A stretch of 24,954 nucleotides of DNA from a virus. The stretch lies in IMG/VR virus record IMGVR_UViG_3300034198_020612, positions 1-24,954 of that record; one strand, written 5' to 3'. Each line of letters opens with the position of its first letter. Within the stretch, counting starts at the first letter, position 1. The translations under genes and the position numbers were made by a program. The notes beneath the pieces are model-generated. The model saw nothing but the letters and a program-made list of their open reading frames with translations, made no database searches and was not told the origin of the DNA. Below are positions 10,288 through 24,954 of the stretch, piece after piece.

Positions 10288-10552
10288 CACGCACGCGCTG
10301 CACATGACGCGCGACGTCGTCGATGGTGCGCACGACCGCGACGTCCCAGTGCGTGTGCCAGTTGACCTGCGCAGGCGTCAGCGTCCCTGACCTCTGCTTC
10401 ACCTCGACCAGCGCGAGCACGCCGTCGATGCTGACCAGCAGGTCGGGCACGCCGCGCCCGAGCGCAGCGAGTGACTGCACCAGCGCACCACAGTCGCGGT
10501 ACGTCTGCACAATCACCGCCTGATTCCCGTCGACCTTTGCCGCGCGTCTCAT
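10226..10552 (-). CDS. VRR-NUC domain nuclease
   Basis: A 108-aa protein; the start MRRAAKVDGN is chosen because its ATG overlaps the stop of the Dps gene (ATGA), although the frame is open further upstream. It shows the PD-(D/E)XK pattern of VRR-NUC nucleases: GVPDLLV (Asp37), then LALVEVKQRSG (Glu50, Lys52), then LTPAQVNWH (Gln62). VRR-NUC enzymes cut branched or Holliday-type DNA; in phages stand-alone copies are frequent in replication or recombination operons. It is the last gene of the leftward operon and runs 62 bases into the convergent holin gene, an unusual overlap. Confidence 0.85.
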   Translation of the reverse strand: MRRAAKVDGNQAVIVQTYRDCGALVQSLAALGRGVPDLLVSIDGVLALVEVKQRSGTLTPAQVNWHTHWDVAVVRTIDDVARHVQRVRATAAARDGVSEPSATPTTPD

Positions 10553-11019
10553 CCGAGCGTGGCTCGGAGCTGCCACGCCCATTTGTTGTGCGCGATGAGA
10601 CGGTCCTGCGCGTAGTTCGCAAGACCGCAATCGCCACCCTTCTCGGCGACCTCGTAGAGGTTCTGCAGGTCATCAATCACGCGGTCGTTCACCGCCTGCA
10701 GGTTCTGCAGCAACGCCTTGCCGGTGTACCCGCCGGTGTCGCTCATCGTGGCGGTCAGATTCGGAATGCCCTCGGCCTCGTTCGCGAAGTCGAGCACTGA
10801 ACACGGCGCCTCGACCTGATGCGCGCGCAGGAATTCCGCGAGCGGGTCGACAGACTCGTGGACGTCTTGGTAGATCGAGCCGAACAACTCGTGCAATTGG
10901 GGAAACGCGGCGCCCTCGACATTCCAGTGCGCAGCGTGCGCGCGCACATACATCGAGAAGACGTTCACTAGTGTCAGGCGCAGGCCAGTGACCATCGTGA
11001 TCTGAGCGGAAGGGCTCAT
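10549..11019 (-). CDS. dps: Dps-like ferritin
   Basis: A 156-aa protein of the Dps/ferritin family. The signature YVRAHAAHWNVEGAAF and the following LHELF and HESVDPLAE place the Dps ferroxidase ligands at His31, His43, Asp58 and Glu62, all present. Dps proteins form 12-subunit shells that oxidise and store iron, and some bind DNA and protect it from peroxide. No lysine-rich N-terminal tail is seen, so DNA binding by the E. coli mode is not expected. The ribosome site AGGAGACACCG is fused to the stop of the upstream gene (TAGGAG). It is a cargo gene in a phage operon; use in the host cell or in the virion cannot be told apart. Confidence 0.88.
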   Translation of the reverse strand: MSPSAQITMVTGLRLTLVNVFSMYVRAHAAHWNVEGAAFPQLHELFGSIYQDVHESVDPLAEFLRAHQVEAPCSVLDFANEAEGIPNLTATMSDTGGYTGKALLQNLQAVNDRVIDDLQNLYEVAEKGGDCGLANYAQDRLIAHNKWAWQLRATLG

Positions 11020-13068: not shown

Positions 13069-13483
13069 GGGTCACCTCCGCGTCGGTGTACGACGGTAGG
13101 AGCGCCACCGGCGCAGCCACGGCATCCATCGCTTTCATCGCCTGCCGGTAGCACGCGCACCGGCGCACGCGGTCCTGCTCGTCGTACTCGAAGTGCGACG
13201 GGTGCTCGCACGAGGCCAGTAGCAGCGCGGCGGCGCGCTGGCGGGCCTCGTCGACGACCTCGGCGATGGCGCCCTTGAGCTGCGGCGCTGTGGGCAGCCC
13301 GTAGAACTTGCGGCCAGCGGCCGCCTGTTCGATGAGACGGTCCGCTGCGGCCAGCAGCCAGCGGTCCTCGACGCCGTCGAGGGCGCGCTCGTACGCGCGC
13401 ACCTGCCATGTGTCGACCTCGACTCTGAACGTCGCGCAGAGCAGCGCCAGCGCGTCCTGCAGCGCTTTCCGCGGCGCGTTCAT
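13058..13483 (-). CDS. Replication accessory protein (helicase loader/inhibitor-like)
   Basis: A 141-aa mostly helical protein. The N-terminal 75 residues (LLCATFRVEVDTWQVRAYER, then ALDGVEDRWLLAAADRLIEQ, then FYGLPTAPQLKGAI) resemble the small helical domain of phage helicase loader/inhibitor proteins, in which a short protein guides the replicative helicase. Downstream, Cys92, His94, Cys109 and Cys111 could bind a metal. It lies directly after a gene with a replication-protein C-terminal signature and overlaps it by four bases, which supports a replication role. The assignment is by pattern and context only. Confidence 0.65.
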   Translation of the reverse strand: MNAPRKALQDALALLCATFRVEVDTWQVRAYERALDGVEDRWLLAAADRLIEQAAAGRKFYGLPTAPQLKGAIAEVVDEARQRAAALLLASCEHPSHFEYDEQDRVRRCACYRQAMKAMDAVAAPVALLPSYTDAEVTRDI

Positions 13484-13770
13484 CGCTGCCCCCCGTAGAT
13501 TGCGCGCAGCGTGCGCACGCTTTTCTCAGCAAGCTGCGGCGCCTGCACGGGCTCGTCGGCCCAGCGCTCGGCGTTTAGCCACGTCGTCGGGTGCGGGATG
13601 TAGTTGCCGCCGTCGCGCAACCACTGATCCTGCGACCGCTGCCACTCCAGAGCGACCAGCATCTCGTCAAGCGTCGCGAGTGTGCGCGCTTTCACGAATG
13701 CCTTACGCGCCGGGCCTTTGCCGACTTTGCGCGGGTACGCGCGCCAGAACGTCTCGAATTCATCCACCAT
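13480..13770 (-). CDS. Stand-alone phage replication-protein C-terminal domain
   Basis: A 96-aa protein. I choose ATG 13770 (MVDEFETFW...) rather than ATG 13776 because the GGGAGG ribosome site is eight bases from the former but only two from the latter. The signature FWRAYPRKVGKGPARKAF, then HPTTWLNAERWADEP is the conserved C-terminal module of many phage O/DnaD-type replication proteins, which normally carry an N-terminal DNA-binding winged helix. Here that winged helix is missing, so this is either a split initiator whose DNA-binding part is elsewhere or a helicase-recruiting partner. It opens the leftward operon, below a dyad- and G-rich control region. Confidence 0.82.
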   Translation of the reverse strand: MVDEFETFWRAYPRKVGKGPARKAFVKARTLATLDEMLVALEWQRSQDQWLRDGGNYIPHPTTWLNAERWADEPVQAPQLAEKSVRTLRAIYGGQR

Positions 13771-13821
13771 GTTCATTGCCTCCCAGCAAGCACGAAACAG
13801 AAAGAACTACGGGCACACCTT

Positions 13822-14476: not shown

Positions 14477-14663
14477 GCAATGCGCGCGCTGTTGCGGCGT
14501 GCTGCACACATTCAACGAGCCCGCGTGGGCGCACGCCGGGCGCATGTACTGCGCCGCGTGTTACGAGCGAGATACTGATGTCCGGACGCAAAGCCCCGTA
14601 CGACCCGAAACCCATTTCCATTGCGATGATGCCCGACTTGCTGACGATGCGGCAGGTCGCTGA
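14469..14663 (+). CDS. Small zinc-ribbon protein, 64 aa
   Basis: ATG 14469 overlaps the end of the preceding gene. The product has CARC (Cys5, Cys8) and YCAAC (Cys28, Cys31), a CxxC-x19-CxxC zinc ribbon separated by a tryptophan-containing loop (EPAWAHAGRMY). The C-terminal part overlaps the next gene by 86 bases, unusually long for this phage, so either the overlap is real or the functional part is the first 35 residues. No strong ribosome site is seen; translation may be coupled. Confidence 0.55.
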   Translation: MREQCARCCGVLHTFNEPAWAHAGRMYCAACYERDTDVRTQSPVRPETHFHCDDARLADDAAGR

Positions 14664-14823
14664 CATCCTGCAAGTGCAGCATCAGACGATTCGCAAATGG
14701 GTGACGATGAGACACATCCCAGTCCACCGCATCGTCATTGCCGGTGGCCGCGGCCTCGTGCGCATCCACCGCGCGGAGGTCGAGCGCATGATCGCGCAAG
14801 GGTATCAGGCAGTCGAAGACTGA
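14578..14823 (+). CDS. Excisionase/MerR-type HTH protein, 81 aa
   Basis: The start MSGRKAPYDPKP is chosen by protein similarity; the frame is open further upstream. Residues about 21-75 (LLTMRQVADILQVQHQTIRK, then WVTMRHIPVHRI, then GLVRIHRAEVERMIAQG) are a helix-turn-helix of the excisionase/HTH_17 kind: helices around AQVADILQVQ and HQTIRKWV, then a short wing and an Arg-x-His strand. Such proteins bind DNA as regulators or recombination directionality factors. No integrase accompanies it in the window, so regulation is more likely. It is followed by a GC hairpin. Confidence 0.8.
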   Translation: MSGRKAPYDPKPISIAMMPDLLTMRQVADILQVQHQTIRKWVTMRHIPVHRIVIAGGRGLVRIHRAEVERMIAQGYQAVED

Positions 14824-14887: not shown

Positions 14888-15190
14888 ATGTCACAGTATA
14901 TCAAACTGGAAAGTGTGTGGTCAGGCGCGACGTGGCGCCAGTTCTACGAGCCCATCACCCCAGACGCGCGCCGGCCGAAGGGCGCGCTGACAGAGTTGGT
15001 GTTCAGCGCGACTAGTGCTGATGAGTGGCGCACGGCGTCGGAAGTGTCTCAGCGCATCGGGTGCGGCACAGCGACCGCCTCGTCCTTGCTTTCGCGGTGG
15101 GCGCAGCGCGGGCGTCTGGAGCACCGGGTTCGCCGGCGCCTGTCGAACGGGCGCCCCGAGAACGAATGGAGAAGGGTCGTGGTGCGATGA
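14888..15190 (+). CDS. Winged-helix DNA-binding protein, 100 aa
   Basis: Preceded by CACTGGGAGG nine bases before the ATG. After a short N-terminal strand region, residues about 43-95 (SADEWRTASEVSQRIGCGTA, then TASSLLSRWAQRGRLEHRVR, then NGRPENEWRRV) form a winged helix-turn-helix: recognition helix TATASSLLSRWAQRG followed by a beta wing with Arg/Trp. Likely a phage transcription regulator of the early region; it lies just before the NrdR-box promoter at 15223-15293. No effector-binding domain is present. Confidence 0.78.
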   Translation: MSQYIKLESVWSGATWRQFYEPITPDARRPKGALTELVFSATSADEWRTASEVSQRIGCGTATASSLLSRWAQRGRLEHRVRRRLSNGRPENEWRRVVVR

Positions 15191-15226
15191 CCGTGCAATC
15201 CGCCCTCGTCGACGCCTGACCACCAC
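15189..15226 (+). repeat. 38-bp inverted duplicate of a gene end (copy 1)
   Basis: These 38 bases are identical to the minus strand of 19533-19570, which holds the last codons (TVQSALVDA and stop) of a 75-aa gene and the bases after its stop. Here only the gene end is present, in the same orientation as the promoter that follows. It reads as a remnant left by recombination; its final CCAC is the beginning of the first NrdR-like box. Confidence 0.85.
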
Positions 15227-15293
15227 ATCTAGTGGCACGGTTATGCGGCGTTCCTACATTATGTGGGATACGATTCCAGCGAGTTGGTATATT
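15223..15293 (+). promoter_or_regulatory. NrdR-box-pair promoter (rightward)
   Basis: Two palindromic boxes, CCACATCTAGTGG (15223-15235) and CTACATTATGTGG (15254-15266), have centres exactly 31 bp apart. They are followed by the dyad CCAGCGAGTTGG (15276-15287) and the extended -10 TGGTATATT (15285-15293). No consensus -35 is visible. The boxes fit the known NrdR operator (core CWATATMTWGTG, paired at three helical turns). It drives the repeat-protein gene at 15351. The same layout recurs at 21072-21146 and 21949-22022. Confidence 0.65.
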
Positions 15294-15307
15294 CTTCTCT
15301 GGTCGGT

Positions 15308-15322
15308 CGGCGATGGGCGCCG
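15308..15322 (+). promoter_or_regulatory. Conserved leader hairpin
   Basis: CGGCG-ATGGG-CGCCG folds into a 5-bp hairpin near the start of the transcript. A 21-base stretch around it (15306-15326) is 20/21 identical to 21059-21039 on the minus strand, and the ERF leader at 16241-16259 has a closely similar hairpin. Confidence 0.5.
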
Positions 15323-15350
15323 CCGCGGGTCTACTGAGAGGAATAGAGCG

Positions 15351-16001
15351 ATGTGCAACTTTCTGAGCGTGCTGGTGCTGCGGGACGGCAGCGTGCGTCA
15401 TCACCCGATGCTCGACTCCCACAGCGATCTCGTGCGCTATTTTGAGATGCCTGACAACGACGAGTTTGTGCATCACTTCGTTAAAGCGGAACTCACGCCG
15501 ACGACGGATTGGACCGATGCGGCAACGTGGCGCTGGCGGATTGATGAGGACGTGAAGCCGGTGTGGTTGACCGACGACGTGGAAGCGCAGGCCGAAGCCG
15601 CCACGCGTGCGATCGCGCAGCGCATGGTGCTGAAGGACGTGGACCGTCAACTCATCGTGGACGGCTGCTGGATCATCGCGGGCGCGTCGAAGATCCGAGA
15701 TGTTCGGTATGGGCGCATCGTGCGCGTGCAGGACTCGGCCAGCATCATCGGTGTGTGGGGCTCGGCCAGCATCAGCAATGTGGGGGGCTCGGCCAGCATC
15801 AGCAGCGTGTGGGACTCGGCCCGCATCAGCGGCGTGTGGGACTCGGCCAGCATCATCGGTGTGTGGGGCTCGGCCAGCATCAGCAGCGTGAGGGGCTCGG
15901 CCAGCATCAGCGATGTGGGGGGCTCGGCCAGCATCAGCAATGTGTGGGGCTCGGCCAAGTTGGATGCGTCGGCGAAAGCGCGGGTGAGCCGCTCACGATG
16001 A
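15351..16001 (+). CDS. Beta-solenoid repeat protein of unknown function
   Basis: A 216-aa protein starting MCNFLSVLVLRDGSV with GAGAGGAA upstream. The N-terminal 125 residues (SHSDLVRYFEMPDN, then VKAELTPTTDW, WRIDEDVKPVW, VDRQLIVDGCWIIAG) match an uncharacterised domain I have seen in phage and proteobacterial proteins that end in repeats. Residues 128-199 are eight perfect 9-residue repeats of the form (D/G)SASI(S/I)xV(W/G), then a partial ninth; such SAS-x-V repeats are expected to form a narrow beta-helix. The ending (SAKARVSRSR) is basic. The stop overlaps the next start (ATGA). Function unknown; a surface for protein or nucleic acid binding is possible. Confidence 0.85.
   Translation: MCNFLSVLVLRDGSVRHHPMLDSHSDLVRYFEMPDNDEFVHHFVKAELTPTTDWTDAATWRWRIDEDVKPVWLTDDVEAQAEAATRAIAQRMVLKDVDRQLIVDGCWIIAGASKIRDVRYGRIVRVQDSASIIGVWGSASISNVGGSASISSVWDSARISGVWDSASIIGVWGSASISSVRGSASISDVGGSASISNVWGSAKLDASAKARVSRSR
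15732..15947 (+). repeat. Eight 27-bp tandem repeats in coding sequence
   Basis: Units start at 15732, 15759, 15786, 15813, 15840, 15867, 15894 and 15921, with a partial ninth at 15948. Each begins G(A/G)CTCGGCC(A/C)GCATC and ends in a variable GTG triplet region. The period keeps the reading frame, so slippage or recombination would change the protein by whole 9-residue turns. Confidence 0.9.
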
Positions 16002-16288
16002 AGGAGCCGACATTGCCCGGCGTCACACTTAACGACTTGCTGCGCGATTCAGTCGACTGCTCTCGACGCCTGCGTCCGCGAGACGGTCTCGCGCTCGTGT
16101 TGCGCACGCTTGCGGCGCAGCTTGTCGATTCGTGGGACTCTGCTGACGCGGTCGAACCACAGCGCGTGTGCGACACGTACGGCCCGGCGGTTGTCGTCGA
16201 AGCGCTTGCGCGCGCGTACGGCTGTAGTACAATGTTGACTCGCGGCGATGGACGCCGCGCACTGGGAGACTCCGATGACACACTCTGA
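15998..16288 (+). CDS. Small hypothetical protein, 96 aa
   Basis: ATG 15998 overlaps the stop of the repeat-protein gene (ATGA). The product is helical and acidic/basic mixed (LNDLLRDSVDCSRRLRPRDG, then LALVLRTLAAQLVDSWDSAD), with AVVVEALARAYG near the end. No family recognised. The last third of the gene contains the promoter at 16206-16233 and the leader of the ERF gene, and its final 14 bases overlap the ERF start. Confidence 0.65.
   Translation: MKEPTLPGVTLNDLLRDSVDCSRRLRPRDGLALVLRTLAAQLVDSWDSADAVEPQRVCDTYGPAVVVEALARAYGCSTMLTRGDGRRALGDSDDTL
16206..16233 (+). promoter_or_regulatory. Sigma-70 promoter for recombination cassette
   Basis: TTGCGC and TACAAT separated by 16 bases, inside the end of the preceding gene. 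The start would be near 16240. The spacer holds GCGCGTACG as in the promoter at 14192, and both continue TACAATGT. Confidence 0.6.
16241..16259 (+). promoter_or_regulatory. Leader hairpin of ERF gene
   Basis: CGCGGCG-ATGGA-CGCCGCG is a perfect 7-bp hairpin at the expected 5' end of the transcript, followed by CACTGGGAGACTCCG and the ATG. The core CGGCG-ATGGR-CGCCG also occurs in the leaders at 15308 and 21043. Confidence 0.6.
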
Positions 16289-16907
16289 GCACATTCACGA
16301 CATTGCCGCCGCGTTGTCGAAAGCGCAGGCCGCTGTGCGCGGCGCGCAGCGCGACTCGGCCAACCCGTTCTACAAGTCTACGTATGCAGACCTGCAGTCT
16401 GTCTGGGACGCGTGCCGCGACGCCCTGTCTGTTAATGGTCTCGCGATCGTGCAGTCGGCGGGCGCAGACGCGCAGGGCGTGCGCGTCAGTACGATGCTCG
16501 TCCACGCGTCCGGGCAATGGTTCGCCGATGACCTGCACCTGAAGCCGAAAGACGACGGTCCGCAGGCGCTCGGGTCGTGCATCTCGTACGGCCGCCGCTA
16601 CGCGCTGGCCGCGTTCGTGGGCGTCTATCAGACGGACAATGACGCGGAAACTGCGGAGGGCCGCGGTGACCATGCGGCGCCGGCGCCGAAGGCAAACGTG
16701 CCCAAGGCGACAGCGACGAAGCCGGACGGGTACGACTCGTGGCTGTCGACAATGCAGCGAGTGGCGACCAAGGGTCTCGCCGCGCTGCAAAGTGAATTCA
16801 AGGCCGCGAGTTTTGAGCAGCGACGCTACGCGACGACTACCGACAAAGTTCGATGGGGCGTCGTCAAAGCCGCGGCGACCGCTGCGGACGCAAAAGGGGG
16901 CGAGTAA
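16275..16907 (+). CDS. ERF-family single-strand annealing protein
   Basis: A 210-aa protein; the start MTHSEHIHDI is chosen for its CTGGGAGA ribosome site. Residues about 8-135 show the ERF family pattern: LSKAQAAVRGAQRDSANPFY then KSTYADLQSVWDAC, LSVNGLAIVQS, TMLVHASGQWFADDLHL, and the closing QALGSCISYGRRYALAAFVG. ERF proteins anneal complementary single strands during phage recombination, usually after an exonuclease has resected the ends. The C-terminal 75 residues are Ala/Lys-rich and variable. The stop overlaps the start of the exonuclease (TAATG), making a matched pair. Confidence 0.93.
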   Translation: MTHSEHIHDIAAALSKAQAAVRGAQRDSANPFYKSTYADLQSVWDACRDALSVNGLAIVQSAGADAQGVRVSTMLVHASGQWFADDLHLKPKDDGPQALGSCISYGRRYALAAFVGVYQTDNDAETAEGRGDHAAPAPKANVPKATATKPDGYDSWLSTMQRVATKGLAALQSEFKAASFEQRRYATTTDKVRWGVVKAAATAADAKGGE

Positions 16908-17557
16908 TGCAGCGTGCGTTCGAGGAGATCTGTGTGCCGCAGGGCTCACCGGAGTGGCTCCATGCGCGTGCTGGACATGTCACCGGCTCGCGCGCCGACG
17001 ATGTGCGCGCGACGCTGAAGAGCGGCAAGCCGGCTGCGAGCCGAGAAGACTACCGCGCGCAGCTCGTGGCAGAGCGCTTGACCGGCAAACCGCAGGAAGA
17101 GTTTTTCGAGAATGCGGCGATGAAGCGAGGCACGCTGTTGGAGCCGTACGCTCGCGCGGCGTACGAACAGCACACGGGCTACATGGTCGTCGAGAGTGGG
17201 TTCCTCCGTTCGACGACGCGGCCGTGGGTCGGATGCAGCATCGATGGACACATCGCTGGCCCTATTCGCAAGATCATTGAGATCAAGTGTCCCGGCGCGA
17301 AGAATCACTTAAAGTGGCTGCGTGACGCGCGCCTGCCTGCGGCATACGAAGCGCAGGTGCTGCACAATCTGCTCGTGACTGGCGCCGACTCATGCGACTT
17401 CGTGTCGTATCACCCGGACATGCCCGAGCACCTGCAGCTCTTCATCGTGACCGTCCTGCCGGCGCTCCTGCCGGTCGAGGAGTACACGCACGCACTAGAC
17501 ACGTTCCTCTCGGATGTCGCGAGGGACGCAGAGGAGTGGTCGACATGGACAGTATGA
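16907..17557 (+). CDS. YqaJ-type (lambda-exonuclease fold) recombination exonuclease
   Basis: A 216-aa protein. Key elements are GSPEWLHARAGHVTGSRADD (N-terminal), GTLLEPYARAAYEQHTGY, the catalytic core GCSIDGHIAG (Asp) followed by KIIEIKCPGAKNH (Glu-x-Lys) and AAYEAQVLHNLLVTG (Gln). These are the residues of YqaJ/lambda-type alkaline exonucleases, which resect double-stranded ends 5' to 3' and hand the single strand to an annealing protein. It directly follows the ERF gene (TAATG overlap), so the two form a two-component recombinase. Confidence 0.92.
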   Translation: MQRAFEEICVPQGSPEWLHARAGHVTGSRADDVRATLKSGKPAASREDYRAQLVAERLTGKPQEEFFENAAMKRGTLLEPYARAAYEQHTGYMVVESGFLRSTTRPWVGCSIDGHIAGPIRKIIEIKCPGAKNHLKWLRDARLPAAYEAQVLHNLLVTGADSCDFVSYHPDMPEHLQLFIVTVLPALLPVEEYTHALDTFLSDVARDAEEWSTWTV

Positions 17558-22296: not shown

Positions 22297-22710
22297 ATGC
22301 CAGAACCCAAACCTGCCCATTTGGCCGACTCCGGTGTACACACGGCGCGCTCGGGCCGCCCGGATGAGCTGACGGTGGCCGCTGCGGCGGTGCCGGCCGT
22401 TGTGCCGGACGTGCTCGACGCGCTGACCGACGAGGAGCTCGAAGCGGTCGCGGCCGGCAAGCGCGTCGGGCGCATCGGCGGGCGCCAGAAGGGCACGGGC
22501 AACCACATCGGCAGGGCTGCTCGCAGGCTGTCTCGCAAGCTTGTGAGCGACCCGGCGTACCTCAAGTCTGTCGAACAGCGCCTACTGGAGGGGCGCGCGC
22601 CGAACTTAGAGACGCTCCTGTGGCACTACGCGTACGGCCGGCCTGCGCAGCAGGTCAATCTCGACGGTCAGATGGCCGTGGCGCAGGTCACCGTGGTCAA
22701 AGCGTGGTGA
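22297..22710 (+). CDS. Candidate terminase small subunit, 137 aa
   Basis: The protein has an acidic N-terminal region (VPDVLDALTDEELEAVAAGK), then GGRQKGTGNHIGRAARRLSR and KLVSDPAYLKSVEQRLLEGR, followed by NLETLLWHYAYGRP. The GGRxxGTxN start, a basic helix and the LLWHYAYGRP turn are seen in small proteins directly before large terminase genes in other phages, usually called small terminase or left unnamed. No strong ribosome site precedes the ATG. The terminase call is by position and pattern; DNA binding through the basic segment is inferred. Confidence 0.65.
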   Translation: MPEPKPAHLADSGVHTARSGRPDELTVAAAAVPAVVPDVLDALTDEELEAVAAGKRVGRIGGRQKGTGNHIGRAARRLSRKLVSDPAYLKSVEQRLLEGRAPNLETLLWHYAYGRPAQQVNLDGQMAVAQVTVVKAW

Positions 22711-23018
22711 GGGCGCAGATGTAACTCTAAGGAATGCAATGGGTTACCGGCGCTTGGCTATGCCTGATGTCCGATAATGCACATTATGTTAACTAAGCGG
22801 GCCGTGGTCATGGGGCTCGCTGGCTGGCTGGGCCAAGGGCGACCCGAGCCCGCAACCCGTTGGGTATCAACGCTTTAAGGCCGGGCATCTCTGGCCCGAG
22901 AATTCGGCTGCGGGTGCGTTTTTGGGGTGGTCACGGGGGGCTCGGGGCCACCCGAGGGTCCGGGTCTGGAGCCGGAGATCACCGCTCCGCACAGCCCCCG
23001 GTTTTAGGATACTGACGT
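22711..23018. other. Non-coding region between terminase genes
   Basis: About 308 bases without a credible gene. It holds the dif-like site, two small hairpins (CGGGC-ATCTCTG-GCCCG near 22880-22900, and CTCGGG-GCCA-CCCGAG at 22941-22956) and several G-runs (22935-22947). The ribosome site of the large terminase (AGGA, nine bases before the ATG) is at its right end. A packaging initiation (pac or cos) site could lie here, as phages often keep it near the terminase genes. Confidence 0.5.
22767..22794 (+). other. dif-like Xer recombination site
   Basis: The 28 bases have the dif plan of an 11-base XerC arm, a 6-base centre and an 11-base XerD arm. The right arm TTATGTTAACT matches the E. coli dif XerD arm (TTATGTTAAAT) at 10 of 11. 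The centre is TGCACA (E. coli TGTATA). The left arm ends CCGATAA against GCGCATAA, so the XerC half is weaker. The inner repeat is ATAATG-CA-CATTAT. Host XerCD could recombine the phage DNA here, for integration at the host dif or to resolve multimers. Confidence 0.55.
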
Positions 23019-24338
23019 ATGAGTACGATAGACCTTGGGTACCGCCCGCGTCCGCAGCAGGTCGCGCTGCACCGGGCGATTGAGTCGCATCGGTGGACGG
23101 TGGCGGTGTGCCACCGGCGCATGGGGAAGACGGTGGCGGCGCTGGTGCATCTTATTGTGGCGGCACTGGAGTGTCAGAAGCCGAGGCCGCGCTTCGCGTA
23201 CGTGGGGCCGACGTACCGGCAGAGCCGGCTGGTGGCGTGGGACTACCTGAAGGCGTACACCCGGGACATCCCGGGCGTCGAGCACCGGGAATCGGAGTTA
23301 GTGTGCAACCTGCCGGGCGAACGGCGCATTCAATTATTCGGAGCGGACCAGCCGGACAGCTTGCGCGGGGTGTACTTCGACGGGCTCGTGCTCGACGAGT
23401 ACGGGATGCAGGCCGGCAACGTGTTCTCGGAGGTGCTGCGTCCGGCGTTGGCGGACCGCCGCGGGTGGGCGTTGTTCTTGGGCACGCCGAACGGGCACAA
23501 CCAGTTCCACGAGGCCGCGAAGCAGGCGCAGGCGGACGAGACGGGCGAGTGGGCGTACCTGTGCTTCAAGGCGTCGGAGACGGGCATTCTGGCCCCGGAC
23601 GAGCTGGCCGGCGCCCGCGACGCGATGACAGCGGACGAGTACGCGCAGGAATTCGAGTGTTCGTTCACCGCCGCGGTTCGCGGGTCCATTTACGGCCCAG
23701 AGATCGACGCGGCGCGCGCGGAAGGCCGCGTCGGGACCGTGAATTACGACCCGGTGCTGCCGGTCGACACGACGTGGGACTTGGGCGTGGGGGACGCCAC
23801 CAGCATCTGGTTTTCGCAGACGCTCCGCGGCGGGGAAATCCGGCTGATCGACTACTACGAAGCGTCTGGGGAAGGGCTCCCGCACTACGCGCAGGTGCTG
23901 CAGCGCCGCGGGTACACGTACCGCACGCACTGGGCGCCGCACGACATCCAAGTGCGCGAGCTGGGCACCGGCCGCAGCCGGCTGGAGGTGGCCGCCAGCC
24001 TCGGCATCAAGTTTAAAACGGTCCCGCGGCTGCACCGCGGCGTCGATGGGGAGCTCGAAGAGGGCATCCACGCCGTGCGGATGCTGCTGCCGAAATGTTG
24101 GTTCGACGCGCAGAAGACCGAGCGTGGGCTCGAAGCGCTCCAGCACTACCGGCGCGACTTCAACTCGCGTCTCGGCGAGTTTCGGGCAACACCAGTCCAC
24201 GACTGGGCGTCTCACGCGTCAGATTCCTTCCGGTATCTGGCAATTTGGCATCACACACCGGCGCAAAAGCCTGAGAATGCGTACACCAGACCGTCTCGCA
24301 GCCATCGGCTGTCGGAGACGGGGTGGATGGGGGGCTAG
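23019..24338 (+). CDS. terL: Terminase large subunit
   Basis: A 439-aa packaging motor protein. ATPase elements: a variant Walker A CHRRMGKT (31-38), Walker B LVLDEYG (123-129) and the coupling motif FLGTPNG (153-159). Nuclease elements: WDLGVGDATSIW (Asp254), HWAPHD (Asp309) and WASHASDSFRYL (Asp402), the acidic residues of the RNase H-like headful-type nuclease. The ATPase pumps DNA into the prohead and the nuclease cuts the concatemer. Length and motif order suit a full-length terminase. It starts with AGGA and is followed by a one-base stop/start overlap with a small protein. Confidence 0.96.
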   Translation: MSTIDLGYRPRPQQVALHRAIESHRWTVAVCHRRMGKTVAALVHLIVAALECQKPRPRFAYVGPTYRQSRLVAWDYLKAYTRDIPGVEHRESELVCNLPGERRIQLFGADQPDSLRGVYFDGLVLDEYGMQAGNVFSEVLRPALADRRGWALFLGTPNGHNQFHEAAKQAQADETGEWAYLCFKASETGILAPDELAGARDAMTADEYAQEFECSFTAAVRGSIYGPEIDAARAEGRVGTVNYDPVLPVDTTWDLGVGDATSIWFSQTLRGGEIRLIDYYEASGEGLPHYAQVLQRRGYTYRTHWAPHDIQVRELGTGRSRLEVAASLGIKFKTVPRLHRGVDGELEEGIHAVRMLLPKCWFDAQKTERGLEALQHYRRDFNSRLGEFRATPVHDWASHASDSFRYLAIWHHTPAQKPENAYTRPSRSHRLSETGWMGG

Positions 24339-24535: not shown

Positions 24536-24954
24536 ATGGCGGACCGCACCGACATCGTCCAGACCATCCGCGCACGGTTCACGCTCGTCTCGAACGCGGA
24601 GAACGAGCAGCGGCGCCGCGAGCTGGAAGACCTGCGCTTCGACGCGGGTGACCAGTGGGCCGACGACGTGAAAGCGGCCCGCGGCGGGCAGGTGGTCGAC
24701 GGCGTGCCTATCCCGGCGCGCCCCATGTTGACGATCAACAAACTCGACCAGCCGGTGCAGCTCATCATCAACCAAATGCGCAACGCGCATCTGGCTATCA
24801 ACATTCACGCCGATTCGGAAGACGCCGACGACGACACCGCCGAGGTGCTGCAGGGGCTCATTCGCCACATCGAGGTGGCGAGCCGGGCGCCGCTCGCGCG
24901 CCAGTGGGCGTACGAGCGCGGCGTGAAGGTGGGCCGCGGCTTCTGGCGCATCAA
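24536..24954 (+). CDS. Portal protein (P22-type), 5' part
   Basis: The gene starts at ATG 24536 and runs off the window after 139 residues. The pattern ENEQRRRELEDLRFDAGDQW, then ARPMLTINKLDQPVQLIINQ, then TAEVLQGLIRHIEVASRAPL and RQWAYERGVKVGRGFWRI matches the N-terminal domain of P22-like podoviral portals, which form the ring through which DNA enters and leaves the capsid. It sits two genes after the large terminase, as expected. The start has no strong ribosome site but lies four bases after the previous stop. Confidence 0.9.
   Translation, partial: MADRTDIVQTIRARFTLVSNAENEQRRRELEDLRFDAGDQWADDVKAARGGQVVDGVPIPARPMLTINKLDQPVQLIINQMRNAHLAINIHADSEDADDDTAEVLQGLIRHIEVASRAPLARQWAYERGVKVGRGFWRI

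Follow-up and report, generated by a model that had tools for sequence, protein, structure and literature searches.

A dif-type Xer site upstream of the large terminase gene in tailed phages and its possible use by host XerCD

Gene context of the site

The window, i.e., the whole stretch of DNA that was analysed, is a linear virus fragment of 24,954 bp. Near its right end, a non-coding region delimited by ORF positions (22711..23018) separates a putative small terminase gene (TerS; 22297..22710, plus strand) from the large terminase gene (TerL; 23019..24338, plus strand). TerL matches phrog_2 (E 1e-32) and is 45-48% identical to the TerL of cultured pelagiphages. The putative TerS ORF yielded no PHROG hit and is named by position, with homologues upstream of TerL in the related contigs L004, L005 and L074. 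The 5' part of a portal protein gene follows (24536..24952, plus strand; phrog_156, E 1e-18), at which the contig ends. The feature under study, a 28-bp dif-type XerC/XerD recombination site (22767..22794, plus strand), lies in the non-coding region, 225 bp upstream of the TerL start (23019), and the single coding overlap at the site is a 33-codon chance ORF.

No integrase was found among the 31 ORFs scanned in this 24.9-kb fragment, and the sole integration-related match in the window is an HTH_17/excisionase-like regulator (14584..14823, plus strand; PF12728, E 1e-8; phrog_66, E 2e-9). Genes for DNA replication and recombination comprise a replication initiation (primosomal) protein fragment (13480..13776, minus strand; phrog_270, phrog_9474), an ERF-type single-strand annealing protein (16248..16907, plus strand; PF04404), with homologues at the same ORF in relatives, and a YqaJ/RecE-like exonuclease (16853..17557, plus strand; phrog_149, phrog_434; PF09588). 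Elsewhere in the window, a Dps/ferritin-like protein (10549-11019, minus strand; PF00210) is apparently phage-encoded, and an ORF at 15015-16001 (plus strand) contains many imperfect repeats of the GSASISNVW/GSASISSVR type.

The 28-bp site

The site, ATGTCCGATAATGCACATTATGTTAACT, divides into a XerC arm ATGTCCGATAA (22767..22777), a central hexamer TGCACA (22778..22783) and a XerD arm TTATGTTAACT (22784..22794), all on the plus strand. This is the dif/xrs layout of the 28-30 bp class: an 11-bp XerC arm, a centre of 6-8 bp and an 11-bp XerD arm, with near-palindromic inner arms. In comparison with the published dif of Desulfovibrio vulgaris (PMC2731167, Table 1), the site presents 25 identities in 28 positions and 21 in the 22 arm positions, the XerD arm being identical and the XerC arm matching at 10 of 11. 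In comparison with Frankia dif (PMC3025954), it presents 22 identities in 28, with 19 contiguous bases that include the whole centre (6/6). The XerD arm matches that of Escherichia coli dif at 10 of 11 positions.

Against the proteobacterial consensus arms NNTNCGCATAA-N6-TTATGTTAAAT, the site has 4 mismatches in 20 positions, a value reached by none of 300 first-order Markov sequences of the same length and composition, eight of which had 5 mismatches. Even with one mismatch tolerated, the pattern GTCCGATAA-N6-TTATGTTAACT occurred in 0 of 530 whole genomes (241 from the Verrucomicrobiota group and 289 from the class Alphaproteobacteria), and a blast search with the 32-mer against cultured phages gave a best hit of only E ~3. 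The original prediction of a dif-like Xer site at this position, with a right half close to the bacterial XerD arm, is borne out by these values. The XerC arm had been described as the weaker one, which holds against the E. coli consensus but not against D. vulgaris. The 28-mer is almost certainly a Xer-type site. It is the phage's own rather than host flank, and it is not a chromosomal dif near a replication terminus, since its place is in a virus record, flanked by the putative TerS gene and the TerL gene.

Recurrence upstream of TerL in related phages

TerL relatives of the window were taken from IMG/VR and their upstream DNA was scored for the dif motif, with the reversed motif as control. 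A dif-type site was found upstream of TerL in L002 (68% TerL identity), L034 and L035/L037/L038/L048, and no match of that quality was obtained with the reversed motif. L002 has the same XerD arm as the window, at a comparable place, yet among the 22 relatives closest to the window in TerL (at least 60% identity, usable upstream sequence) no other carries a site, L023 being ambiguous. Poor conservation in close relatives with conserved flanks had been proposed as grounds for rejecting the site; the first half of this pattern was found, but the intergenic flanks are not conserved among these 22 relatives either. In the window's own branch, the site looks like a sporadic acquisition.

Two other groups present a far more regular picture. 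For the TerL-A subclade, 80 relatives with 86-100% identity were fetched with the TerL of L182; every one of the 75 contigs whose upstream sequence was examined carries a dif-type site, located at -297 to -364 from TerL, with 0-3 mismatches to the generalised dif motif in 74 contigs and 4 in one. For TerL-B, 80 relatives were fetched with a TerL-B protein, and of the 54 whose upstream sequence extends to 1650 bp or more, 47 have a site with a score of 0-1 at -609 to -1498, while the best score of the reversed motif in the same stretches is 3-6. The window's exact arms, ATGTCCGATAA and TTATGTTAACT, recur in many TerL-B sites. A TerL-B subgroup (L662-L670) is without a dif-type site and has a degenerate relative, ATGTACCTCAATGCTTAACATGTTAAGC, at about -645, which perhaps reflects decay or the Xer specificity of another host.

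The association was also obtained from the opposite direction. Many contigs fetched by the dif pattern alone (at least 35 among the matches listed) carry a TerL homologous to the window's or to TerL-B; the site is upstream of TerL in all such TerL-A/B contigs, at distances of 137-1498 bp, and none of the contigs fetched by the reversed pattern has a TerL of either group. Given that the degenerate 16-base pattern and its reversed control are both abundantly matched in viral contigs, raw pattern counts in IMG/VR are no evidence, and the evidence is the link to TerL. This abundance, together with the scarcity of the site among the window's nearest relatives, would be compatible with a chance resemblance in the window. 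Such a coincidence is nevertheless very improbable given the 300 random windows, the agreement with a published dif, the 530 genomes without a match and the XerD arm shared with L002.

Cultured relatives provide an informative comparison. HTVC010P-type pelagiphages are podoviruses whose TerL is homologous to that of the TerL-A subclade (57-59% identity); unlike the latter, all twelve cultured pelagiphages compared have no similar site in the 419-1500 bp examined upstream (best score 3-6), and their host, Pelagibacter ubique, is reported to be without dif/Xer (PMC2731167). The recurrence in two TerL families, a dif-like information profile and this absence in twelve relatives whose host reportedly has no Xer system strongly support the assignment of a Xer/dif-type site to tailed phages. 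Among other cultured phages, C72C1 has a weaker site at -145 (score 2). The TerL-B relative phiM5 has an annotated 357-bp terminal repeat directly upstream of TerL, the region in which the dif-type sites are found in related phages. This placement would suit a site in or beside the terminal repeat that serves XerCD in circularising the incoming linear genome, a role that loxP-Cre can play for P1; given that phiM5 itself has no dif-type site upstream of TerL, we consider such a role in cyclisation improbable.

Conservation pattern within the site

In the sites of related phages, the XerD arm is better kept than the XerC arm and the inner parts are the most conserved, which fits the rules given for dif (PMC2731167) and for the Xer sites of plasmids and megaplasmids (PMC11724359), where the same profile has been described. 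In TerL-A, the inner XerC bases (ATAA) and the inner XerD arm are invariant (pairwise identity 1.00, partly a selection effect because the motif score rewards the inner arms), and the outer XerD arm has an identity of 0.80. In the XerC-side half of the centre, pairwise identity falls to 0.39, compared with 0.37-0.44 in the flanks. Arms that are kept around a XerC-side centre that drifts like neutral DNA suggest that the site recombines with another copy of itself rather than with a fixed host dif. This argument is weaker for TerL-B, whose centres are more constant and mostly have TG at the XerC side; such constancy would also be expected with a host dif as partner.

The orientation of the site at the same locus differs between close relatives, in TerL-A as well as in TerL-B, so it would appear to have been flipped or replaced repeatedly. 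Both observations bear on whether the element is instead a promoter or operator of the terminase operon, possibly XerCD-bound, and not a recombination site. Its intergenic, AT-rich position upstream of late genes and a promoter-like match that overlaps it on the minus strand (n=1, 0.1 expected) are consistent with regulation. However, a regulatory element is hard to reconcile with both orientations at one locus, with conservation that follows the XerC/XerD arm plan rather than promoter hexamers, and with the absence in all twelve pelagiphages, and we regard it as quite improbable.

Gene content of site-bearing phages

No tyrosine integrase (PF00589) was found in 16 site-bearing contigs of 13-62 kb, which have one site per genome unit (n=16, up to 61.9 kb); those of up to 35 kb have a single site. 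The combination that characterises IMEX phages, a dif-like attP and no integrase, is hence present in the related contigs and, within its 24.9-kb fragment, in the window. In G032 and G006/G004, two near-complete genomes, gene content was considered through Pfam matches, selected genes and a PHROG view comprising the 25 most frequent of 97 families. Their selected non-structural genes include a primase-helicase, an exonuclease, a RuvC-like resolvase, TerS, a holin and an endolysin; no repressor, ParA or integrase was found among the Pfam matches and selected genes. More generally, ParA was not found in the window or in the TerL-A and TerL-B genes scanned, and the latter also gave no plasmid Rep and no repressor.

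One of these contigs, G004 (L444-L447, 61.9 kb), has two identical dif-type sites 36 kb apart, one per phage copy. It was considered as an integrated prophage and rejected, as it consists of two diverged copies of about 36 kb of one phage, end to end, without host DNA. The tandem is either a strain-mixed assembly or a real tandem dimer.

Search for integrated copies and for the host

The site might act as an attP through which the phage enters the chromosomal dif by means of host XerCD, like the filamentous IMEX phages, which would make it an integrase-free tailed lysogen. Several features are compatible with this: the mimicry of dif, with a centre identical to that of Frankia, the lack of an integrase in site-bearing contigs, the TG at the XerC side of most TerL-B centres, which is the part needed for XerC-first integration, and the excisionase-like HTH protein in the window. 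Direct searches for integrated copies do not agree with it. No close TerL prophage was found in about 85,000 genomes, where the best match was ~52%, most were lower, and partial MAG matches were at 51-63%, although the TerL motifs used do match TerL-A members. In 369 Gammaproteobacteria genomes, nothing above 34% to TerL-B was found.

Moreover, no phage-host junction at the site was seen in TerL-A/B contigs, and no TerL-A alignment of close pairs ended there; the only alignments ending at the site were L116/L114, and L150 against TerL-B loci at 85-86%. The XerC-side centre of TerL-A, which varies like its flanks, argues against a fixed host partner, and the two near-complete genomes gave no repressor among the genes scanned. 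Entry into the chromosome at dif, as raised in the original prediction, is therefore not supported by these data. Integration at a host dif, as in IMEX phages, was not observed among the genomes sampled, and the hosts may be unsampled, which is the main escape for a mechanism that has no positive support and failed several tests. Integration is possible, yet we judge it unlikely.

As for the host, a 27-mer of the window site with up to 3 mismatches was found in one of 198 sampled Desulfobacterota genomes, and Desulfovibrio TerL relatives have no close site near TerL. Proviral records in which dif lies close to an end (G014-G017) were set aside as evidence: G014 and G017 have a tyrosine-recombinase-like ORF next to the site, and G015 and G016 are host-flank-like, as judged from ORF sequences only. 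In two large proviral records from high-GC isolates, a tyrosine-recombinase-like ORF directly adjoins an actinobacterial-type dif (L464 1-1352, L465 6150-7495). The presence of contig ends close to the site was judged uninformative as an indication of recombination.

Acinetobacter phage-plasmids as comparator

A set of podoviral phage-plasmids from Acinetobacter, which are no close relatives of the window, offers an analogy. The isolate-derived 38.6-kb record G013 encodes a podoviral portal, a ParA-like protein and KilAC, and is related to Acinetobacter plasmids; phage structural genes together with plasmid replication or partition genes are present in both the record and its plasmid relatives. 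Its dif-type site, AGTTCGCATAATGCCCATTATGTTAAAT (L459 2622-2649), shares the arms of the site AGTTCGCATAAGCTGTATTATGTTAAAT in the complete circular plasmid pPUMA0246_2 (L471 36547-36574), while the centres differ (TGCCCA and GCTGTA, respectively). Plasmid pA1254_1 is without a site of this kind; in the interval that, judged from gene order, apparently corresponds, it encodes a serine recombinase (L472 16580-17137). Multimer resolution predicts just such an exchange, with a resolvase in place of a Xer site.

Discussion

Recombination by host XerCD between copies of the phage's own site, which would resolve multimers of circular phage genomes, fits the observations somewhat better than integration into host dif. 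We favour it tentatively, at a little short of even probability. A phage of this type would have no recombinase of its own for the task and would have host XerCD act on sites in phage DNA. Circular genome copies may fuse by homologous recombination, for which the ERF and YqaJ/RecE-like proteins encoded in the window would be suited, and XerCD would then recombine the two identical sites and restore monomers. The extrachromosomal form could be a phage-plasmid, a carrier state or a replicating circle. Binding and recombination of the site by XerCD, a substrate in phage DNA instead of the chromosomal dif, and an extrachromosomal state are all inferred.

The resolution of multimers of a plasmid-like prophage had been suggested from the outset. 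That part of the suggestion which concerns resolution fits better than dif integration in view of the variable centre, the lack of close prophages and the Acinetobacter comparator, whereas a plasmid state is not evident in the window or in the TerL-A/B genes scanned, given that no ParA was found there. In Enterobacteriaceae, dif-type sites that have no accessory sequences depend on FtsK and are nearly confined to large replicons, and plasmids of 30-100 kb tend to be without Xer sites (PMC11724359). This rule and the missing plasmid genes count against self-recombination.

Known systems resemble these phages in part. IMEX elements likewise have a single dif-like site and no integrase of their own, with host XerCD presumed active; the present phages differ in being tailed podoviruses with terminase and portal, in having an intact 28-bp site with a 6-bp centre, in the variation of that centre among relatives and in the lack of an integrated copy among the genomes searched. 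Plasmid and megaplasmid Xer sites (xrs, cer/psi, Acinetobacter pdif) also have conserved inner arms, a XerD arm that is kept best, a centre that is not conserved, and one copy per replicon, but the phage site has a fixed place by the terminase in a replicon of ~35 kb. Phage-plasmids (P1 with loxP/Cre; pPUMA0246_2 and pA1254_1) share a site or recombinase able to keep a circular phage genome monomeric; P1, however, encodes its own recombinase and, unlike P1, the window and the TerL-A/B phages have yielded no ParA.

The expectation that Xer exploitation is known mainly from filamentous phages and small islands agrees with the literature, to which gokushoviruses, tailless vibriophages and plasmids are to be added. 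In the open-licence literature, no account of XerCD/dif use by a podovirus was found, but one for a filamentous prophage, and any novelty is provisional. A wider picture can be proposed, though we think it rather less likely to hold than to fail: two abundant podovirus lineages and, through a separate acquisition, the phage of the window may use host XerCD on a dif mimic beside the terminase without integrating, so that chromosome-dimer resolution would become genome monomerisation, the site being absent where the host is reported to lack Xer.

If true, a fixed dif-type site in common podoviruses without an integrase would be a feature of lifestyle that is overlooked when phages are classed as strictly lytic for want of an integrase. 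In addition, the arm sequence may hint at the dif type of the host, and the choice between multimer resolution and integration becomes a direct, testable question.
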